Shown here piece after piece: positions 3,129 to 54,684 of a stretch of 54,684 nt of DNA. Within the stretch, counting starts at the first letter, position 1. Every line of letters starts with the position of its first letter. A program made the position numbers and the translations under genes. Source of the DNA: a virus; the IMG/VR virus record IMGVR_UViG_3300036791_000093, positions 1-54,684 of that record. The stretch is one strand, 5' to 3'. Below the pieces are notes generated by a model. That model saw nothing but the letters and a program-made list of their open reading frames with translations. It made no database searches and was not told the origin of the DNA.

Positions 3129-4757
3129 ATGAGCGAAATGCTGACCCGGAGGCCGCTTCTTAAGAAGAAGCCAACCGGGAAATTCAAGATGCGTGACTTC
3201 CAAGAGGAAGATATCGCATACATGGATGACATCAGCCGCGGCTCTTGTAACTGGTCTGAGATGGGAAGCTTCAAAACAACCACCGCTGAGTGGTTGATTG
3301 AGCTTAAGACTAAGGACATTCCTAATCCGCGTGTCCTTGTCATCACCACAAAGACTGGTAAGGGGCCGTATCTGGAGTCTCTGTGGGAAGTTCTCCCGGA
3401 GTGGGATATCTATACGGTTGGGACTAAGAAGTTCCAATTCGTTGTAGGTGCTCGTCCTGCTCCGTGGGACGTGTCTCTTCCTAGTCCTCTGAAAATGCGT
3501 CCGACGATCGTGCTAGCGCACTATCACTGTTTCACCAATCGGGCGTGTGTTCCACAAGAGGTCAAAGAGAAGATCAACGTTGCTGGTAGGGAAATCACTA
3601 GGCCAGTCATCGATCCTGAGACTGGTTTGGTGAAGATGATCGTCCCTCGATGCAATGAGTTGTTCACCAAGCATTGGGATATGATCGTGGTCGATGAGGC
3701 CCATCGTATCAAGAATCACGATGCTCAGTGGACACGCAACATCAAGAAGCTCAAGGCTCCGTATCGTCACATCATGACTGGTACGGGATTTGTCAACAAT
3801 CCAGCAGAGATTTGGAGTCTGCTTGATTTCGTGTGGCCCGGTGCCAACAGTCCACATCACGCGGTTGTCGGTACTAAGGGTTATTGGGGATTCCGCGAAT
3901 ACTTCTGTGAAGAGGATAACTTCGCAGGATACAGAAAGATCGTGGGAATCAAGCCCAAGAAGGAAGCGGAGTTCAAGGAGCTGGTTCGTAGCGTTGGCGT
4001 GAGACGCACGATGTTGGAGTGTTTCCCCGACATCAAGGAACCGATGGAAACTGTGGTTCCTGTGGAGTTGTCGCCTACACAGAGGCGCATGTACGAGCAG
4101 ATTAAGCAGATGCTTATGACGATGGATGCGAATGGTACTCCGCTTCACAGTCCGTCGGTTCTGGCTATGCTTAGTAGGCTGCGTCAGATTGCTATCGCAA
4201 CTCCCGAGGTTGTCAGTGAGAGATACGACGAGATACTGGAAAAGCGTGTCGTCGAAGTCAAGCTCACTGAGCCTAGCTCCAAGTTGGATGCCTGCATGGA
4301 AGTGATTGAAGGACTGGAATGGGACTCTGATCGTAAAGATCAGGTTGTCGTGTTCTCCAACTTCAAGCAGCCACTCGAATTGCTCAAGAAGAGGTTCGAC
4401 AAGGCTGGTATCACTTACTTGCACATGGTAGCCAGCATGAACGAGAAGCAGCGGTATGAGTTGTGGCACGAAACTTGGCCGAAGGGTGAACATCAGGTAT
4501 TTCTTAGCACGCTGGATCTTGGTGCTGAGTCAATCAATCTCACCGCAGCTCACAGGGCAATCTTCCTCGATCAACACTGGAGTCCTGCAAAGAACGCACA
4601 GGCAATCGGTCGTGTGTATCGTCCTGGTCAGACTGGTGCGGTTCAGTTGATCTACATCAGAGCGACTGGTACGGTGGACTACAGGGTTCTCGATGCTGTC
4701 AACGAGAAGAGGGGTTGGTTTAGGCAGATTTTCGGAGCAGATGAGGACGATGAGTAG
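3129..4757 (+). CDS. SNF2-family DEAD/DEAH-box helicase
   Basis: 542 residues from ATG 3129, ribosome site ACGGGAG. Helicase superfamily 2 motifs are visible in order: a Walker A site SEMGSFKTTT (Lys near residue 49), VVDEAHRIKN near 187-196, a motif III-like MTGTGFVNN, a motif V region STLDLGAESINLT and motif VI QAIGRVYRPGQ near 490. The spacing and the WSLLDFVWPG block match the SNF2 branch (an ATP-driven translocase on DNA). Phage members are usually placed with replication and recombination genes, as here. The full set of motifs suggests it is active. Confidence 0.93.
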   Translation: MSEMLTRRPLLKKKPTGKFKMRDFQEEDIAYMDDISRGSCNWSEMGSFKTTTAEWLIELKTKDIPNPRVLVITTKTGKGPYLESLWEVLPEWDIYTVGTKKFQFVVGARPAPWDVSLPSPLKMRPTIVLAHYHCFTNRACVPQEVKEKINVAGREITRPVIDPETGLVKMIVPRCNELFTKHWDMIVVDEAHRIKNHDAQWTRNIKKLKAPYRHIMTGTGFVNNPAEIWSLLDFVWPGANSPHHAVVGTKGYWGFREYFCEEDNFAGYRKIVGIKPKKEAEFKELVRSVGVRRTMLECFPDIKEPMETVVPVELSPTQRRMYEQIKQMLMTMDANGTPLHSPSVLAMLSRLRQIAIATPEVVSERYDEILEKRVVEVKLTEPSSKLDACMEVIEGLEWDSDRKDQVVVFSNFKQPLELLKKRFDKAGITYLHMVASMNEKQRYELWHETWPKGEHQVFLSTLDLGAESINLTAAHRAIFLDQHWSPAKNAQAIGRVYRPGQTGAVQLIYIRATGTVDYRVLDAVNEKRGWFRQIFGADEDDE

Positions 4758-6065: not shown

Positions 6066-6589
6066 TGTTACTACCAAAAGAACTCAGAGAAATTTCAGGT
6101 TTCCCTGGTTATTTTGTTTCTTCTGGTGGTAGAGTCTTTTCGACTTTCTACAATAGAGGCACAGATTTCAGAGAACTCAAACTTAAACGCGGTTGGCACG
6201 GTTATATGGAAGTAACTTTGTATTCTTCTGGGGATTCTCCTAAAACCATGTTAGTCCACAGAATTGTAGCCCTAGCTTGGCTACCTGCCCCAGAAAATTC
6301 TTCATTTATACAGGTTCGACATTTAGATGATGATCCAACCAATAACGAGGTTAGTAATCTTGCTTGGGGTACTGCTGCAACAAACAATCGAGAACGTTCT
6401 ACTACTCTTCTAACAGAACAAAAAGTGAGAGAAATAAAAGAACTTCTCAAAATACATAGAAGATCGCGCGGAGAAACTGGACATGCAGACGGTAAATTAA
6501 CTTACGCAGAAATAGGAAAAATGTATGGTGTATCGAAACTTACAATTTCTTCTATAGCAAATGGGAAGAGTTGGAGAGATGTTGACTGA
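6065..6589 (+). CDS. HNH homing endonuclease (NUMOD4 type)
   Basis: 174 residues from ATG 6065. Residues about 5-45 (ELREISGFPGYFVSSGGRVFS) match the NUMOD4 module. Then comes the HNH core (LVHRIVALAWLP ... VRHLDDDPTNNEVSNLAWGT), and a C-terminal helix-turn-helix (TYAEIGKMYGVSKLTISSI) typical of DNA-recognition modules in these enzymes. Such free-standing enzymes cut at a recognition site and spread their own gene. The coding sequence is visibly more AT-rich than its neighbours, as expected for a recent arrival. It overlaps the start of the nuclease gene. Confidence 0.88.
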   Translation: MLLPKELREISGFPGYFVSSGGRVFSTFYNRGTDFRELKLKRGWHGYMEVTLYSSGDSPKTMLVHRIVALAWLPAPENSSFIQVRHLDDDPTNNEVSNLAWGTAATNNRERSTTLLTEQKVREIKELLKIHRRSRGETGHADGKLTYAEIGKMYGVSKLTISSIANGKSWRDVD

Positions 6590-7859
6590 GATCGCTCAAA
6601 CAGCGTCAGGTCTGTATAAGCCCCCAGAGATACCTAATAAATTTGACATCATTCCAATCCATAATTCTGACCGTGCATCGTTTAAACACTGTCGCAGATA
6701 CTTTGATTGGTCTAGTCCGACTCGTCATAATCTTAGCCTACGTGCAGATACACTTGGAATCAATACGGATCTTTTCTTCGGAACCGGGATACACTACGCA
6801 CTCGAACAATACTACCACCCAGGACTTAGACGTGATCCGGTAGAGTCATGGAGAACTTGGTTTGATGTTCAGTGGAGAGGCGGTACAGTAACAGAAGATT
6901 GGCTGGATAAGGTGTATGATCTGGCTCCCAAAGCGGTCGGGGGCGTCGATAATGGGAAGCCAGATCATAGACTTTATCTAGTAAGAGGCTTGCAGGACAT
7001 TCTTCCTGATGCCGATAGTGAACTGTATGATGAATTGTTCACACTCGGCGTTGAAATGATGACTGCGTATAAGCCTTATGCTGCTAGGAAAGATGAGTTT
7101 GAAGTCCTAGTAGTTGAGCATGATTTCTCAATCCCCGTATGGGATTTTGAGAATGAGTGCATCCTCACCGCTGTAGATTTGCGTGAGCAATCACCTAACT
7201 ACGGTAAGCGGTTAGAGGTACATTCTCGTGGTCGTATGGATGCCATTTGGCAGAAGCCTAGTGGTAAGTACGGCATCATCGACCACAAGACATCAAGCCG
7301 GATAGACGATGACTACTTTGATAAGTTGGAGACTGATGAGCAGGTCACGTCATACGCTCATGCAGCCGAAATTGAAGCCAAGTATTACGGACTTCCGTAT
7401 GCTGGTTTCCAAGTCGAGGAAGTGGTGTATAATGTACTCCGCAAGACATTCCCGCGTCCTCCTACGATGGTTCGTTCTGGCCTATTCTCCGTCGATAGAC
7501 AAAACGAATCAACCACATACGAAATGCTTATGGAGTTCATCCAGCAGAACAACATCGACATCGAATCGCTCGACGAGAAGCATCAGGCGTACATCGCATA
7601 CGTGCGGGATTCGGGCGTAGAACAGTGGTTCATTCGTAAGCTGGTAAGACGGAATCGTAGTCAGCTACAACAAGCCGGATATAGGCTGTACCTTGAAAGC
7701 CTAGACATGCTTGACCCGGATCTGCGTATCTATCCCAACTTGTCAAACAACTACAGGTGTATGCGTTGCCAGTTCCGCGCGCCATGTCTGATGATCGAAT
7801 CAGGAAATGATTGGCAGAGCGTACTGGAAAGCAACTACACGCACAGTCGGGATCGCTAA
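6579..7859 (+). CDS. PD-(D/E)XK nuclease, RecB/Cas4-like
   Basis: About 426 residues; ATG 6579 and TTG 6582 are both possible starts and both overlap the HNH gene. The nuclease core is seen as GTGIHYALEQYY near residue 65, VVEHDF near 180, GRMDAIW near 217 and YGIIDHKTSS near 230, with a DEQVTSYAHA helix after it. The C-terminus has CMRCQFRAPC, the cysteine group that often holds an iron-sulfur cluster in this family. It is likely an exonuclease that processes DNA ends for recombination, working with the Sak4-like ATPase encoded downstream. Confidence 0.9.
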   Translation: MLTEIAQTASGLYKPPEIPNKFDIIPIHNSDRASFKHCRRYFDWSSPTRHNLSLRADTLGINTDLFFGTGIHYALEQYYHPGLRRDPVESWRTWFDVQWRGGTVTEDWLDKVYDLAPKAVGGVDNGKPDHRLYLVRGLQDILPDADSELYDELFTLGVEMMTAYKPYAARKDEFEVLVVEHDFSIPVWDFENECILTAVDLREQSPNYGKRLEVHSRGRMDAIWQKPSGKYGIIDHKTSSRIDDDYFDKLETDEQVTSYAHAAEIEAKYYGLPYAGFQVEEVVYNVLRKTFPRPPTMVRSGLFSVDRQNESTTYEMLMEFIQQNNIDIESLDEKHQAYIAYVRDSGVEQWFIRKLVRRNRSQLQQAGYRLYLESLDMLDPDLRIYPNLSNNYRCMRCQFRAPCLMIESGNDWQSVLESNYTHSRDR

Positions 7860-7955
7860 TTCGATTGAAAGCGATTAGTCTCCAAGGTTCCCATTAAGCA
7901 TCTGGAGCCAAGGTGCGCACGCAGGGAATACAGGGACTAATCGCTGTCAATCGAA
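7860..7955 (+). promoter_or_regulatory. 19-bp leader hairpin with 54-nt loop
   Basis: TTCGATTG (7860-7867) pairs with CAATCGAA (7948-7955), and AGCGATTAGTC (7870-7880) pairs with GACTAATCGCT (7935-7945). Only a two-base internal loop separates the helices. The stem starts on the base after the nuclease stop and ends just before the ribosome site of the next gene. It fits an RNA-processing site or translational switch better than a terminator, as no U-run follows. Confidence 0.75.
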
Positions 7956-18969: not shown

Positions 18970-19034
18970 GTTAGAGGGATCGCAGCTCACTTGTAGTGGG
19001 AGAGAGTCACACACAAGGGCGCGATCCCTCTAAC
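18970..19034. terminator. Bidirectional hairpin between convergent arms
   Basis: GTTAGAGGGATCGC at 18970-18983 pairs perfectly with 19021-19034 (14 bp) around a 37-nt loop. It lies exactly between the end of the plus-strand arm (18958) and the end of the minus-strand late arm (19046). Position and symmetry support a two-way stop. There is no strong U-run on either side. Confidence 0.75.
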
Positions 19035-24953: not shown

Positions 24954-27900
24954 TTACTGGTCTGCATAGAAGCTGACACCAGTTAGTGAAACCCAGATAC
25001 TACCAGATGCTATACCACTAGTTACAGTTCCGTCTGTATTGACACGCCACGTTTCGGCTGGTTGAGCACCCGAAAGAGAAGTCGCAGTTTGGAAAATCAT
25101 ATTTATCGTGGGTCGATAACCAACCGGAAGTGTAAATGCTGTCGTGCCTGCGGCAGCATATGTAGTCCACGATGTCAGTCCTCTCAATACGACAAGTCCG
25201 CTAGACAACTTCCGATAACTACATGGCCCGTACGGAGCGGAATAATCGGTAATGCCAGCAGCCCACCCGAGTGATGCAATTGATAGCCAAGCACCATCGG
25301 GACTAGCCGTTACTCTCACCCATGCCTGGAATGTTCCACCAGCTTGCTGACGCATCCACACTTCTTCTTTGTCATTGCCAGTGAGTAAGTAGGCAACTTG
25401 AACGGCATAACCCGCGCCCCAACTAATGACCTGCAAATAAATTTGTGAGTTTATTGTGCTAGGTGGACTATTAGTAACGCTATTGCCGAGATACCATCCT
25501 GTCGCTGTTGCTAAGTTCAAGTCTGTGATTTGTCCAGAAACTCCCGCAAGCCGCGCAGGAGAAACTATATCACTTGCTGAGAAAGTGCCATCTGTCTTGA
25601 GTGCGCCCGCTGCTGTGCGGTACAGGGTCGTATCGGATGCGGCGTTGCCCGGCCCCCATTGCATCACACCGTTGGCTTGTATGTACCAGTACCAGTTACT
25701 ACCTCCATCGACGTTGGTTGCTAACGCAACACCGGCAGCAGTTGCCGAAGGTGTAAGTATCAAAGCAGCATTTGCGGTGAACACCCGTGCGCTGTTGCGA
25801 GAGAGATATGTATCGAGTGCAGCGTTACCAGGCCCGAAATAGAGAACTGCATCGTTACGAAGGAAAACACGCGGTTGTGTGTCACCAGTTGCGAGTGTTT
25901 TAAATCCCCAGCCGGTGAGTGCTCCCTCCGACTGGATAGACCCAATGAAAGAAATCTGGCTCGCCGCCGAGCGCCACATATAGGCGTCCCCAGCGGTAGA
26001 GTATCCGATGTAGAGGTAAGCGCCGACGAGAACGTTGGAAGTCGCGTTGAAAGATCCGTCTGTCCTAAGAAGGCCAGCACCATTGCGATATAGATTTGTG
26101 TCTATGGTGGTGCCGTCGCTCCATTGAAGATATCCGTCTGTACGTTGCAAGAACCGTGGTTGTGATTCTCCTGAAACTTGTGAATACGAGGCATAGTCAG
26201 TCGCGTTGACCTTGTAGTGAAAGATTCCGAGACTAGTCTGTTGATAAGCTGGGTAAATCGTGCCCTGCGTGACGAACGAGCTATTTGTCGTAAGCTGACT
26301 GACACCACTACGAAAAAGATTCGTATCTATTCCTGCTGTACCTGGCCCCCAACCCATCGTTCCAATAACGTTCATCTGGAACCGATTATTGGCATCACCA
26401 GCATCAGAAGAAAAGGCTGTGTCTCCTGTCGCAGCCCCTCTGAAGATTAGCCAAGAATTAGTGAGCAAACCTTTTGCGAACACACGCTGGATATACGAAT
26501 CTGTTCCAGCGGTGCCTGGCCCAAACCGGAGGGAACTGTCATTCACTATCTGCGCGCGTGCCCAACCATCTCCACCCTGGATAACAGTGACATCTCCGTT
26601 ACCACCACTAAGTCCGTCACCCGCCCAGAAACGTCCATGTGTCCATAGCCAGTTTGCCGCATAACGATAGAGACTTGTGTCTACTCCGGTTGCTCCACCC
26701 GGCCCCCAGTTAAGAGCGCCGTTACTACCTGCGATGTAAAAGATTGAGTTAGCATCGGTCTTGTTGAGGAACATTGCGAATGTCCCAGCGCCACGCATCC
26801 AGAAATTGCCATCAGTCTGTAGCTGATTTGCCGCACCACGGTAGAGATTTGTGTCGGGTGCGGTTGCTCCGCCTGGCCCCCAATCAAACTCACCACTACC
26901 AAGAACACGCCAAGCCGGTTGAGCATCAGTGGCGACATACTTGTTAGCAATGATCCGTGTTGCAGCAGCAATAGTTGTATCAGCGGGGAGGATTCCTGAT
27001 CCAGTTGCACCTGTTGGGCCTTGTGGGCCTGTTGGGCCTATTGGGCCTTGTGGGCCAGTTAGATTTCCTTGAAGTGTCCATGTACTTGTAGCAGTTTTTT
27101 GGTAGTAAGCACCAGTCGTTGTGTTGATGTACCAGTCACCCACAACTCCTGTACCAGCGGCGGGAGCAGTAGTTCCTTGATACCAAACAGAACCCGGTGT
27201 ACCTGCTGGGCCTTGTGGGCCTGTAGCACCAGTATTACCTATTGGCCCTTGTGGGCCTTGCGGGCCTGTACCACCTGCTGCACCAGTTGGGCCTGGTGGG
27301 CCAGTTGCACCTGGTGGGCCTTGTGGGCCTGGTGCGCCTGGTACACGAACAACAACCGACGTATCGCGGTTGTTTAGCGGGATGATGCCACCCGAATCTA
27401 CGAGTGTAACAGTCCAATATCCCCAAGTACCTTGATCTTGAAAGGCGCCAGTAACTGTGTAATGAGCATACTTTGTTGCGTCTGCTTGATCTTGGAGATA
27501 AACCGTATCGTCAGGTTGGATTTGTGTCAAAACATTAGTAACATCAGTACCTGCTTTATTCGTCTTGCTGATTTGAATCCGAGTAGCAACTCCCCATGAA
27601 GCTGCATTAAGGTTTATATCACCACTGTTTGTTGGTTGTGCTTTAGTTGTCCAGTTCCAGGTTCCTGTAATGATAGCGCCACCACCGCCACCAGAACCGC
27701 CATCTGGATTTGCGGGCCACCACATCACCACCCACATCTCGTGATTATCATCTACAACAACGACACATTCGTCGCCACGCTGCGGAACAGTTGAGTCAGT
27801 CCTGGTTACCCATTTGCAATCTTCCCATCTAACCGTATCATCCAAATTGGGGATGACAACCGAAATGAGTTCGCTTGAGTCAGTAGGAGCAGTAGCAACC

Positions 27901-47353: not shown

Positions 47354-47403
47354 GGGTGAGTCCTTTCGGGTGAGTGTGACGCGCGCCTCATGCGCGCACC
47401 CCC

Positions 47404-47412
47404 AGAGTAGCA
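47404..47412 (-). promoter_or_regulatory. Extended -10-like element for the GC-rich gene
   Basis: On the minus strand TGCTACTCT covers 47412-47404, in the TGCTA style of the other promoters. No clear -35 is seen. It would give a leader of about 43 bases before ATG 47353. Confidence 0.4.
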
Positions 47413-47461
47413 GCGGCGCGCGGTTGCACGTGTCCCTACCCCTAGAGTACGCATAGCTTGG

Positions 47462-47700
47462 CTGAAATGTTAGGACTGTCCTTACATCTCAGCTTGGCTG
47501 GCTGGCACCGTGTCTCTCGTGAGGCACGGTGCCTCACACGGCACACGGCACACGTGAGGCACACGACACGTTTAGGTGTCGTGTCACACTTGTGTGTCAC
47601 GACTCAGATATGGGTCGTGTCACTTTTCTGTGACATGACCCAGATATGGGTCGTGTGACTTATCTGTCACCACACACTTTCCTTACATTTCAGGAAAGTG
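47462..47700. repeat. Dense inverted and direct repeats in the 47.4-47.8 kb intergenic region
   Basis: A 13-base motif CTGAAATGTTAGG occurs at 47462-47474 and, inverted with small changes, at 47480-47492 and 47681-47693. Perfect inverted repeats lie at 47519-47537 (9 bp) and 47562-47583 (8 bp, 6-nt loop). A 23-base direct repeat lies at 47601-47623 and 47637-47659, each copy holding GACCCA-GATA-TGGGTC or a near copy. A 9-bp hairpin lies at 47675-47700. The 484-base gap 47354-47837 has no gene. Confidence 0.8.
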
Positions 47701-47722
47701 GTGGCTACAGTGTGAGAGATGG

Positions 47723-47770
47723 CGCAAGTCAGCAAGTCAGCAAATTCGCAAGTCAGCAAGTGTACAAATT
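47723..47770 (+). repeat. Two tandem 24-base units
   Basis: Units at 47723-47746 and 47747-47770 both start CGCAAGTCAGCAAGT and end CAAATT; a partial third follows (CGCAATT). They stand just upstream of the plus-strand gene at 47838. Iteron-like binding sites are possible. Confidence 0.85.
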
Positions 47771-47837
47771 CGCAATTTGCTAACTTTTCAGATCGCGCGC
47801 CTGCTTTAATAAAAACAGCACAGGACGGGGGAATCAA

Positions 47838-48122
47838 GTGAAAGGCGTGAGCAACCTAGAGTTGCTTGCCTCATTTGGTAACTCTCGCAAGTCAAGTGGA
47901 AACGGACTGTTCCGAATCACTGAGGAAGATGGAACAGTCACCTTCCAACGTGGCGCCGCGAGTAGTTCGCAGATAGGCAAGTTTGAAGGAAAGTCGGGTG
48001 GCATGGTTCGCTCGGCTAAGGGTGCTACCCGTCGTAAGTTGGACGGCCGGCGTTACTACGTTCCCGGTGCAGACTCACCCTACCCGCTAGTCGCGTACAA
48101 AGCGGCTACGGTGGTTAAGTAG
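47838..48122 (+). CDS. Hypothetical small protein
   Basis: 94 residues from GTG 47838, with ACGGGGGAA upstream. Basic and Gly/Ser-rich (SFGNSRKSSGNGLFRITEED, GKFEGKSGGMVRSAKGATRR), with a beta-type end YYVPGADSPYPLVAYK. It is the first plus-strand gene after the repeat-rich region, under a TGCTTTAAT-type element near 47803. No family recognised. It may be an early host-interaction protein by position only. Confidence 0.65.
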   Translation: MKGVSNLELLASFGNSRKSSGNGLFRITEEDGTVTFQRGAASSSQIGKFEGKSGGMVRSAKGATRRKLDGRRYYVPGADSPYPLVAYKAATVVK

Positions 48123-49171: not shown

Positions 49172-49711
49172 TTGTCCTCGGTTGAAACCAACGCGCCTGC
49201 TACTGAGCAGGACGAGTTTCTGGCGAGGGTCAAGAAGGAAAGGGTCAAGTACGATACTCTCGTGGCTTGGCACCTTACCGCGCATGTCGATGCCAAGCTG
49301 AGTCTGCCTTGGAGCGGTGACAACACGTACATCAGTTGTTCCGTGAACAAGGTGGATGACACTGGTAACGAGCTTTACGGTGAAGTGGACGAGGCTAAGA
49401 CAGTCGAGTACCTCGCTCGCGTCATCAAGTACGCTCGTCGCAGGAAGTTCAACGTGGAGAAGGACTACTCCGGTGACCAGTTCACCGTGAAAGTCAAGGT
49501 TCCCATGAACGGCTTGCGTGTCGATGCTGACCCGAACCAGTACGGCAACTATGTCATCGTGAACTACTACGCTGACAGGAATGCCGTGTGTACTGCGAAG
49601 GTCGTGGGACAGAAGGTTGTCCCGGCTCACACGACTCCTGAGCGTGTCGAAGATGTCGTGGAGTGGGAGTGTGCTAAGCTCTCATTCCTCGGCGTGGACA
49701 CCGAGGAGTAA
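49172..49711 (+). CDS. Hypothetical protein
   Basis: 179 residues from TTG 49172, chosen for GGGAAAGGAACC just upstream; an in-frame TTG at 49142 is possible. The N-terminal 30 residues are acidic and helical. The remainder alternates beta and helix (YDTLVAWHLTAHVDAKLSLP, EYLARVIKYARRRKFNVEKD, NYVIVNYYADRNAVCTAKVV) and ends FLGVDTEE. No family recognised. Its long hairpin-rich leader suggests tight control. Confidence 0.75.
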   Translation: MSSVETNAPATEQDEFLARVKKERVKYDTLVAWHLTAHVDAKLSLPWSGDNTYISCSVNKVDDTGNELYGEVDEAKTVEYLARVIKYARRRKFNVEKDYSGDQFTVKVKVPMNGLRVDADPNQYGNYVIVNYYADRNAVCTAKVVGQKVVPAHTTPERVEDVVEWECAKLSFLGVDTEE

Positions 49712-49720
49712 CAAGTTACA

Positions 49721-49814
49721 ACTAGCCCAAGTAGGGCTAGTGAAGTATAGCGGAAACAAAAAATGAGGTGGGGCCAATTGAGCGTCCATCCAAGGTTGCT
49801 GCTATACTTCACTA
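49721..49814 (+). promoter_or_regulatory. Two overlapping hairpins, second with 49-nt loop
   Basis: Hairpin 1 pairs 49721-49728 with 49734-49741 (8 bp, 5-nt loop). Hairpin 2 pairs 49738-49751 with 49801-49814 (14 bp perfect). They share 49738-49741, the same layout as at 2318-2393. They lie between stop 49711 and ATG 49842. Confidence 0.7.
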
Positions 49815-49841
49815 ACCCTACTAGCTAAGGCGGTGATTAAG

Positions 49842-49940: not shown

Positions 49941-50252
49941 TTCAAGAGGGCCGCTCAAGTAACAAGCAAACCTTAGCAAGTAGGTTTGCTAGGCCATAGC
50001 GGATGAGAGAAACTAGAGGTAGTCTAGCGGCTAGCGTCTAGTGTAATCCGTGCGCTATAAAGACCGTTTTGGACAGTATAAAACAGAGCGGTTTTAAGTT
50101 GAAGCTAAGTCGCATGGCGCGACTAATGCGGACGGTAGCTCCGTCTTAGACTTAAGACTCAACTGTTGACTGTATCCTATATTCGGCTGCGTAAGCTATG
50201 GCCCAGCAAGCCTATTAAGGGCTAATCCACTCAGCTAAAGGGGGTGAGTTAA
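49941..50252 (+). ncRNA. Candidate structured RNA A (312-base gap without a gene)
   Basis: No credible gene is seen. Visible helices: 49965-49973 with 49982-49990 (9 bp, 8-nt loop); 49996-50001 with 50053-50058; 50097-50102 with 50159-50164, enclosing CTAAG/CTTAG (50105-50109, 50144-50148), a 6-bp hairpin AGTCGC/GCGACT (from 50109) and the hairpin GACGG-TAGCT-CCGTC (50131-50145). The nested pairs suggest a branched RNA. This is a sequence observation; folding software was not run. Confidence 0.55.
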
Positions 50253-50604: not shown

Positions 50605-50946
50605 GTGGCTAATCAGCTAGGTGCTGAGAGGCTTGAAAGGCTCATCAATCAGTGTCGCGAGAAGTGTGAGACACTTGGTCCCGATGAGCTTAACAAGCTC
50701 GATCAGGCCATGGCTGTTGAGTTTGACGAGCACTTCAAGTTTCAGCAGACTCAAGCTGAGGCTCACGTCATGGAGTTGCTCTCAAGTGACGCAGCTAACA
50801 TCGTGTACCAAGCCCTCGGTGAGGTTGGCTCCAGTAGCAATGGTGGCTGGGCCAAGAATACCGACACGGCTACCAAGGTCATCGTGACTCAACTCATGGC
50901 GGAGCTTCTCAAGATGAAGCTCAAGTCACGTGGCGTAGCCGTCTAG
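50605..50946 (+). CDS. Hypothetical helical protein
   Basis: 113 residues from GTG 50605, with AACGGGAG upstream. It is nearly all helix: LGAERLERLINQCREKCETL, DELNKLDQAMAVEFDEHFKF, SSDAANIVYQALGEVG and a C-terminal LMAELLKMKLKSRGVAV. No family recognised. It ends immediately before structured RNA B. Confidence 0.7.
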   Translation: MANQLGAERLERLINQCREKCETLGPDELNKLDQAMAVEFDEHFKFQQTQAEAHVMELLSSDAANIVYQALGEVGSSSNGGWAKNTDTATKVIVTQLMAELLKMKLKSRGVAV

Positions 50947-51388
50947 GCTAGTAACAAGTTGCGGGAAGTGTGACGTGTTGGATAGTAGCGGGTGTCACAC
51001 AAGTTGGTACGGGGTTAAGCCAACACCTGTAGTTGAATGAGACACACCCTAGTAACATGCCGAAAGGCAAAGGTAAGGGTTCGATTCCCAAACTAGTGCT
51101 AGGTTGGTAGCTACTGATGCCCTGTTGCATAGCACAAACCACGGGTTGGAGATTGTTGCAACAATCTTCCCAATTGTGGGACAAATGCTCTGGGTGTGTC
51201 TCATTGAACTACAAGCCCGAGGTTGTTGCGACGGGTGCAACGTGTAAGAGTCTAGTCAACCGCCTATGCACAGTTTGACTGACTGTGAAGCCAGAAGCTT
51301 TAGTTGGCTGGCAAGCCGGAGTCACGTGAAATTACCGGAAGGGTAACCGTTGCACCATTCGGAACAACTAAGGGGGTGATATAACCCA
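50947..51388 (+). ncRNA. Candidate large structured RNA B (442-base gap without a gene)
   Basis: No credible gene is seen, but many helices are. 50968-50974 pairs with 50994-51000, and 51003-51007 with 51020-51024. A long-range helix joins 51028-51049 to 51192-51213 (21 pairs, one G-G mismatch). A 9-bp long-range helix joins 51234-51242 to 51348-51356. Inside are TGCC-GAAA-GGCA (51058-51069), a tRNA T-arm lookalike GGGTTCGATTCCC (51077-51089), an 18-bp palindrome (51150-51167) and hairpins at 51269-51287, 51290-51312 and 51332-51346. It is likely a true RNA; class unknown. Confidence 0.7.
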
Positions 51389-51715
51389 GTGAAGAACATG
51401 GGAAGCAAGTTCGAGTACAAGTGGTTTGAAACCTGCGTCGAATGGGTCGGAGACAACGAAGATCCAGACGAGTGGGACAATTTCGATGACCAAGAGTGGG
51501 TTCCCGAGGATAGTATTCGTGCCGTCCTCAACGAGCTTGGTAAAGAGCCGTGGGATAGCATCGATGTCCGCACGGATGAAGTGATCTGCTATCCCGCAGA
51601 CAGTCATCAAGACTTCCGAACGGGAGTCCACACGAGTAACCAACTCATCATAAGGGTCAAGTACCCTCGGTGGGTTGATCGGCTCATGTCCTGTCACTAC
51701 AACCACAAGCACTAA
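51389..51715 (+). CDS. Acidic hypothetical protein
   Basis: 108 residues from GTG 51389, with GGGGGTGAT eleven bases upstream. It is acidic and Trp-rich (CVEWVGDNEDPDEWDNFDDQ, AVLNELGKEPWDSIDVRTDE) and ends with a basic/His-rich segment (WVDRLMSCHYNHKH). Acidic phage early proteins sometimes mimic DNA, but no motif proves it here. It directly follows structured RNA B. Confidence 0.7.
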   Translation: MKNMGSKFEYKWFETCVEWVGDNEDPDEWDNFDDQEWVPEDSIRAVLNELGKEPWDSIDVRTDEVICYPADSHQDFRTGVHTSNQLIIRVKYPRWVDRLMSCHYNHKH

Positions 51716-54544: not shown

Positions 54545-54684
54545 ATGCGCGAAAGGGATATTAACAGAAAGCTTTTCCACGCGGGCCATTATGAGATTAT
54601 AGCGGCTCGCTTTCGTGAGGCTTTCGAGCCTTTCGTGATGGGTAACAATGTCAATGGTGAGAACAGTCGTGAACTTACGGCTCT
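54545..54684 (+). CDS. Hypothetical protein, 5' part (gene crosses the contig join)
   Basis: It starts at ATG 54545, with GGAAAGGAAA upstream, and runs off the window; the same frame resumes at base 3 of the window and ends at 266, giving about 104 residues. It begins MRERDINRKLFHAGHYEI, a basic helical start. No family recognised. This gene shows that the contig closes into a circle. Confidence 0.85.
   Translation, partial: MRERDINRKLFHAGHYEIIAARFREAFEPFVMGNNVNGENSRELTA
54558..54684. repeat. Terminal direct repeat, right copy
   Basis: Identical to bases 1-127. It shows that the contig is circular or circularly permuted. The exact length of 127 is suspiciously that of an assembly k-mer. Confidence 0.95.

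Follow-up and report, generated by a model that had tools for sequence, protein, structure and literature searches.

Does a gap of 442 nucleotides in a phage genome (positions 50947-51388) hold one large structured RNA, or is it built of something else? The window, by which we mean the whole stretch analysed here, is the uncultured soil phage record IMGVR_UViG_3300036791_000093 of 54,684 bases, and is probably a complete phage genome because it carries a 127-bp direct repeat at both ends (1-127 and 54558-54684). It encodes a contractile-tail sheath, and its portal and terminase are distant kin of Gordonia, Microbacterium, Arthrobacter and Curtobacterium phage proteins; a search of GTDB genomes with the terminase found no prophage and identified no host genome. 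Relatives were gathered as 26 related contigs via the terminase, with more via the neighbour proteins. Upstream, a gene of 113 amino acids (50605-50946, + strand) adjoins the gap, and downstream follows one of 108 amino acids (51389-51715, + strand), whose GTG start is preceded by the ribosome-binding site AAGGGGGTGAT. A search for relatives of the downstream gene gave none, and the neighbour proteins of 113, 108 and 229 amino acids, each searched singly in viral contigs, returned no kin; in G009, a homologue of the 113-aa gene (64%) is directly followed by the next gene, with no intervening RNA. Within the window, TAACAAG is over-represented (19 occurrences against 5.9 expected) and often lies at or just past the stop codon that opens a + strand gap (for example at 49709, 49960, 50952 and 52246); the divergent intergenic region at 47360-47840, in which both CAGATATGGGTCGTGTCAC motifs and CAAGTCAG recur, is likely an early promoter/operator region; and a large tail fibre gene contains collagen-like 9-nt repeats at 26982-27349.

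The initial annotation described the gap as free of genes and filled with many nested helices. No conserved coding frame runs through it among the fetched kin, in which its open reading frames of at least 30 amino acids have no meaningful relative (best E 0.06), and every helix and motif that had been named was located in a base-by-base check. The helices are thus present, but only two significant stalks remain of the nested set. The fold signal of the gap sits in these two long helices, the remaining parts being near chance; the first 81 nt (50947-51027, + strand), for instance, form a weak GTGTGAC/GTCACAC hairpin that is not significant (z = -0.4). The folding z of the whole gap, -4.9, is not discriminating because nearby protein genes score alike (-5.2, -2.7, -3.3 and -5.3 for four coding controls), and the z-score was dropped as evidence for RNA; such scores fail to separate RNA from coding sequence in phages of this kind. 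Across the whole window, on the other hand, eight helices spanning up to 420 nt score at least 16, where 20 dinucleotide shuffles average 0.2. Searching the gap DNA directly in phages and in the 26 related contigs gave nothing useful, nhmmer with the gap interior matched only the window itself among the fetched relatives, and Rfam scans of window, gap and relatives returned tRNAs only. What can safely be said is that the gap holds two stalked elements between genes, of which one is conserved by covariation; they do not add up to one giant ornate RNA, a caution that a long gap with strong folding in a phage need not be a single large RNA.

The first of these elements, D1 (51020-51218, + strand), is a stalk around a 142-nt interior, and its fold z of -5.8 comes essentially from the stalk, the interior alone scoring -1.5. 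Its 5' strand (TGTAGTTGAATGAGACACACCC, 51028-51049) and 3' strand (GGGTGTGTCTCATTGAACTACA, 51192-51213) form the near-perfect 21-pair helix of the annotation, with 21 of 22 positions paired and one G.G mismatch. Taken alone the helix is suggestive, since one of 20 whole-genome shuffles equalled its score; it is secure because it is conserved in L047, a 59-kb contig and the best relative for the gap locus. There, between the same two gene families, L047:5657-5755 (TAGTTGAATAAGACAGTGAC...GTCACTGTCTTATTGAACTA) is the counterpart of D1: 14 pairs are unchanged, five have changed on both sides, none is broken and the G.G mismatch is retained, so that all five variable pairs are compensatory. The outer half of the D1 5' arm is identical to that of L047:5657-5676 and the inner half covaries, whereas the L047 interior is just 59 nt long and unrelated. 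The comparison therefore indicates that the stalk covaries and tells against conservation of what it encloses. This covariation is read from a single relative, at a level that 15 of 500 shuffles reach, and a search of viral contigs with the D1 arm pattern found the partner arm in the L047 contig only. Covariation, together with the lack of a conserved reading frame, supports a base-pairing function for the helix. A GAAA tetraloop hairpin was confirmed inside D1 at 51058-51069 (+ strand; TGCC-GAAA-GGCA, UGCC-GAAA-GGCA as RNA) from the sequence of the window alone.

The second element, D2 (51214-51375, + strand), is an interrupted stalk with a 105-nt interior (z = -4.5 for the whole, 0.0 for the interior). 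The 9-bp helix that had been noted is perfectly paired (GGTGCAACG at 51234-51242 with CGTTGCACC at 51348-51356), and on the helix check the pairing runs outwards from it to 51222 and 51368 (86%), giving strands of 51222-51242 and 51348-51368. Support for D2 comes from its own sequence only, no relative backing the stalk.

The tRNA T-arm-like motif reported inside D1 is likewise present, as GGGTTCGATTCCC at 51077-51089 (+ strand), but its occurrence is not above chance: there is one in the window where 0.12 are expected, and 11 of 100 shuffles contain it. The hairpin, GGG-UUCGAUU-CCC, may be a tRNA-like module, a reading by analogy with D-armless tRNA-like elements seen at other places in the clade. 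Those elements, on the sense strand and intergenic, combine an acceptor stem, one hairpin and a T-arm without a D-arm (L031:3922-3981, L057:~3785-3850, L047:~6685-6745 and L057:~190-240); an 8-nt loop that ends in CGGAA is common to two tRNA-like elements, and none is called by ARAGORN. At L051:2100-2135 a T-arm lies inside a stalk. In the window itself ARAGORN finds no genes and Rfam matches neither tRNA nor tmRNA; the idea of a tmRNA or permuted tmRNA, prompted by the T-arm, was dropped for want of a match, as was a group I or II intron, there being no split gene and no Rfam match.

The stalks of the gap have many sisters. We counted 58 intergenic stalks, at a cut-off of at least 16 bp, in 320 kb of sequence from the clade, most of it from early regions; the median length is 21.5 bp (most 20-25), with roughly 5-220 nt enclosed, and G015 has about nine or ten within 20 kb. 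The arms vary from copy to copy yet remain complementary, but the search itself selects complementary arms, a circularity that elements A, B and D1 alone escape. Across the arms G.U pairs outnumber A.C (45 against 31), which weakly points to the sense strand. The related isolates Wollypog, Shrew, Krampus and Perlina carry few stalks, several of them terminator-like, and no cultured phage with a stalk array is thus known yet.

Element A (2311-2411, + strand; stalk 2335-2358/2376-2399 with an overlapping 13-bp hairpin) is the cleanest test because its copies are located via the downstream gene, not via complementarity. Its position upstream of the orthologous gene is maintained, with a long stalk, in most relatives, the exceptions among orthologues being L136 and L132 (only 9 bp) and L046 (none of such length). 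Five copies can be aligned: all cells (100%) are paired and both sides have changed in 10 of the 18 pairs, a level of covariation reached by none of 500 shuffles; strand 3, the 3' arm, ends 11-40 nt before the gene start. Element B (49712-49840, + strand) has a stalk at 49730-49753/49799-49822, conserved in L047:4756-4873, and an overlapping upstream hairpin, ACTAGCCC-AAGTA-GGGCTAGT. Element C (49959-50240, + strand) encloses a 194-nt interior in its stalk, 49979-50000/50195-50216, again overlapped by an upstream hairpin (AGCAAACCT/AGGTTTGCT), and a further intergenic sister lies at 7860-7955 (+ strand; arms 7860-7882/7933-7955). One stalk with 25-nt arms, at 6902-6982 of the window, differs from the intergenic ones in lying inside the exonuclease gene (6561-7859).

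Other structured or repetitive features were seen in the clade. A stalked RNA motif with the conserved core CTCAGCCGGATAANGCNATTAG ... GCTGTAACNAATGNCGGTGATG, absent from the window, occurs in five clade phages (L031:1-151, L008:6439-6628 (-), L032:1683-1827, L017:40-174 (-) and L057:236-379), with compensatory changes in 19 of 30 predicted pairs; it has no Rfam match, a pattern search found none elsewhere in IMG/VR, and it has the appearance of a new family of small structured RNAs. In L018, ~2450 nt into the reverse complement of the first 2700 nt, tandem telomere-like repeats of CTAGGGTTACTAGGGTT lie beside a stalk.

A more specific feature of the sister stalks lies in their flanks. Upstream, a flank strand (strand 1) can often pair with the outer portion of arm 2 (for example CTAACCC-GAAA-GGGTTAG); downstream, a flank strand (strand 4) can in some cases pair with the outer portion of arm 3. 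Overlapping hairpins of this kind occur upstream at 26 of the 58 stalks (45%) and downstream at 13 (22%), against 4% with shuffled flanks in each case, while alternative hairpins on the inner side are nearly absent (0 and 2 of 38). The median reach into the stalk is 11 nt for the upstream hairpins (10-12 nt in 19 of 26) and 10 nt for the downstream ones (p = 0.037), a small difference; in a stalk of ~22 bp, both therefore extend to its middle.

Which known systems do these elements resemble? The proposal that the gap is an ornate RNA of the GOLLD or ROOL kind finds no support, given unconserved interiors and stalks that recur between many genes. The window has no Rfam hit at the gathering threshold, and the gap, scanned at E values up to 10, gives chance-level matches only and neither GOLLD nor ROOL. 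The likeness to those RNAs lies in a non-coding structured phage RNA, tRNA association and a GAAA loop (PMC12286853); unlike them, the elements here match no covariance model, have no conserved multi-helix core and are many, small and independent, and in length the gap falls short of many GOLLD RNAs. Its interior has no homologue in the fetched relatives, the D1 stalk alone being shared, with L047.

Nearest among known kinds are the RNase III sites of T7 and, in cluster K mycobacteriophages, the inverted repeats called extended start-associated sequences (ESAS). As in the early genes of T7, long helices lie between cistrons in the sense transcript, here a predicted one, and, as in the processing stalks of pre-rRNA, a large RNA can be enclosed. 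T7 sites are hairpins of irregular shape in which a single cut, within an internal loop, is common; the stalks here, on the other hand, are near-perfect, with copy-variable arms and flanks that refold onto the outer half only. ESAS are paired, imperfect inverted repeats of ~17 bp with a variable spacer, found upstream of translation starts in a subset of genes of actinobacterial phages, with one consensus shared by all arms and a 13-bp SAS in attendance (PMC3203893, PMC12699233). The stalks share with them the inverted repeats, the variable spacer and the position just upstream of a gene start, but have arms of 20-25 bp that differ between copies in a compensatory way instead of following a 17-bp consensus, enclose up to ~220 nt and are overlapped by flank hairpins; no SAS (GGGATAGGAGCCC) was seen before the gene starts inspected.

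From these comparisons, and on sequence grounds, we consider that the stalks are quite possibly, if just short of probably, RNase III processing sites that would cut the phage mRNA between genes. RNase III requires a duplex of at least ~22 nt and leaves a 2-nt 3' overhang (PMC5371410), and the two-turn length of the stalks suits it: in the predicted transcript the intercistronic duplexes have the median of 21.5 bp given above. Observed directly are the stalks with their intergenic placement and length, the covariation of A, B and D1, and where the alternative hairpins lie, with their bias towards the outer side. That the stalks are transcribed, that RNase III cuts them, that the ends are capped and that the freed RNA has any role, we infer. 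Each stalk would form in the transcript a double helix of about two turns, near-perfect in D1 and interrupted in D2, which host RNase III (a phage-encoded enzyme is absent among the window proteins scanned) would cleave near the middle with the usual 2-nt stagger. The cut would part upstream from downstream mRNA and set the enclosed RNA free; in D1, cuts are predicted after ~51038 and before ~51205, freeing ~166 nt. In many other copies the outer half of an arm could then pair with the mRNA beside it, giving a short capping hairpin, strand 1 with strand 2 capping the new 3' end and strand 3 with strand 4 the new 5' end. The hairpin reaches of 11 and 10 nt appear compatible with cleavage leaving a 2-nt 3' overhang, and a processing site is preferred because a cut in mid-stalk by RNase III would free exactly those outer halves. 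Against this reading in the gap itself stands the absence of its most specific feature, the capping hairpins, from both D1 (none above threshold in the flanks) and D2 (none on inspection by eye), and for these two elements we thus propose the cutting step alone.

Nor is the pairing of strands 1-2 and 3-4 against 2-3 unique to processing, since it also fits a switch that uses the same four strands to couple the translation of neighbouring genes, the main rival to a processing site, which we think unlikely yet worth serious thought. A terminating ribosome would mask strand 1 and allow strands 2 and 3 to pair, the hairpins 1-2 and 3-4 forming otherwise. Such a set of pairings is typical of an attenuator. 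Strand 1 lies directly behind the upstream stop codon, its start being within ~2-11 nt of a stop in elements A, B and C; in several phages the 3' arm of element A (strand 3) runs right up to the ribosome-binding site, and one downstream hairpin overlaps an SD (L019). A helix of 20 bp or more, however, is far stronger than alternatives of mostly 7-9 bp, so that switching back is unlikely; most downstream hairpins leave the ribosome-binding site uncovered, and D1 lacks the alternative hairpins altogether. Stalks that follow genes and are very stable might instead protect transcripts or end them, blocking 3' exonucleases or RNA polymerase without specific cutting, and one, at 18970-19034 between convergent genes, does resemble a bidirectional terminator. 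This is distinctly less likely, as there is no U-run behind D1, D2, A, B or C, the next ribosome-binding site is close behind A, B, C and D2, and loops of 40-220 nt are ill-suited to intrinsic terminators.

That the stalks are recombination linkers, their repeated outer arms (GGGTTAGTGA, CTAGGCTTG) allowing exchange of small genes and inserts between phages, would account for an element B that follows the 189-aa gene in the window and precedes it in L047, for the unrelated D1 interiors (142 and 59 nt) and for the G009 copy of the 113-aa gene with no stalk behind it. We nonetheless hold it improbable: homologous recombination needs no inner arms that vary while staying complementary in each copy, and the two-turn length and the outer-half hairpins are left unexplained. 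That all 442 nt act as one functional non-coding RNA, a large ornate phage RNA of a new class, is more improbable still; the covarying long helix, T-arm-like motif and tetraloop, and the presence of another conserved RNA module in the clade, speak for it, but interiors that are unconserved and of chance-level stability, the lack of an Rfam match and a counterpart in L047 enclosing just 59 nt weigh against it. Inverted repeats acting as DNA, for example as protein-binding or replication sites, we regard as the most far-fetched reading. In its favour, the arms are almost purely Watson-Crick, with a weak G.U excess; they differ among copies, however, and so offer no common protein site, the distance between them can be anything from 5 to 220 nt, more of the alternative hairpins are on the upstream side, taken in the direction of the genes (26 against 13), and the strong intergenic stalks are located in the early region, in one transcription direction.

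Taken further, RNase III processing suggests an early polycistronic mRNA cut at an array of copy-specific two-turn stalks, with outer halves built to cap the ends and interiors that are exchangeable cargo RNAs, some tRNA-like; we offer this fuller scheme tentatively and with more doubt than belief. If true, it would be a simple and general design giving each gene of one long transcript protected ends, and such sites would be recognisable in any genome as paired sequence. Unexplained intergenic inverted repeats of phages, including ESAS, would then become testable by RNase III assay.
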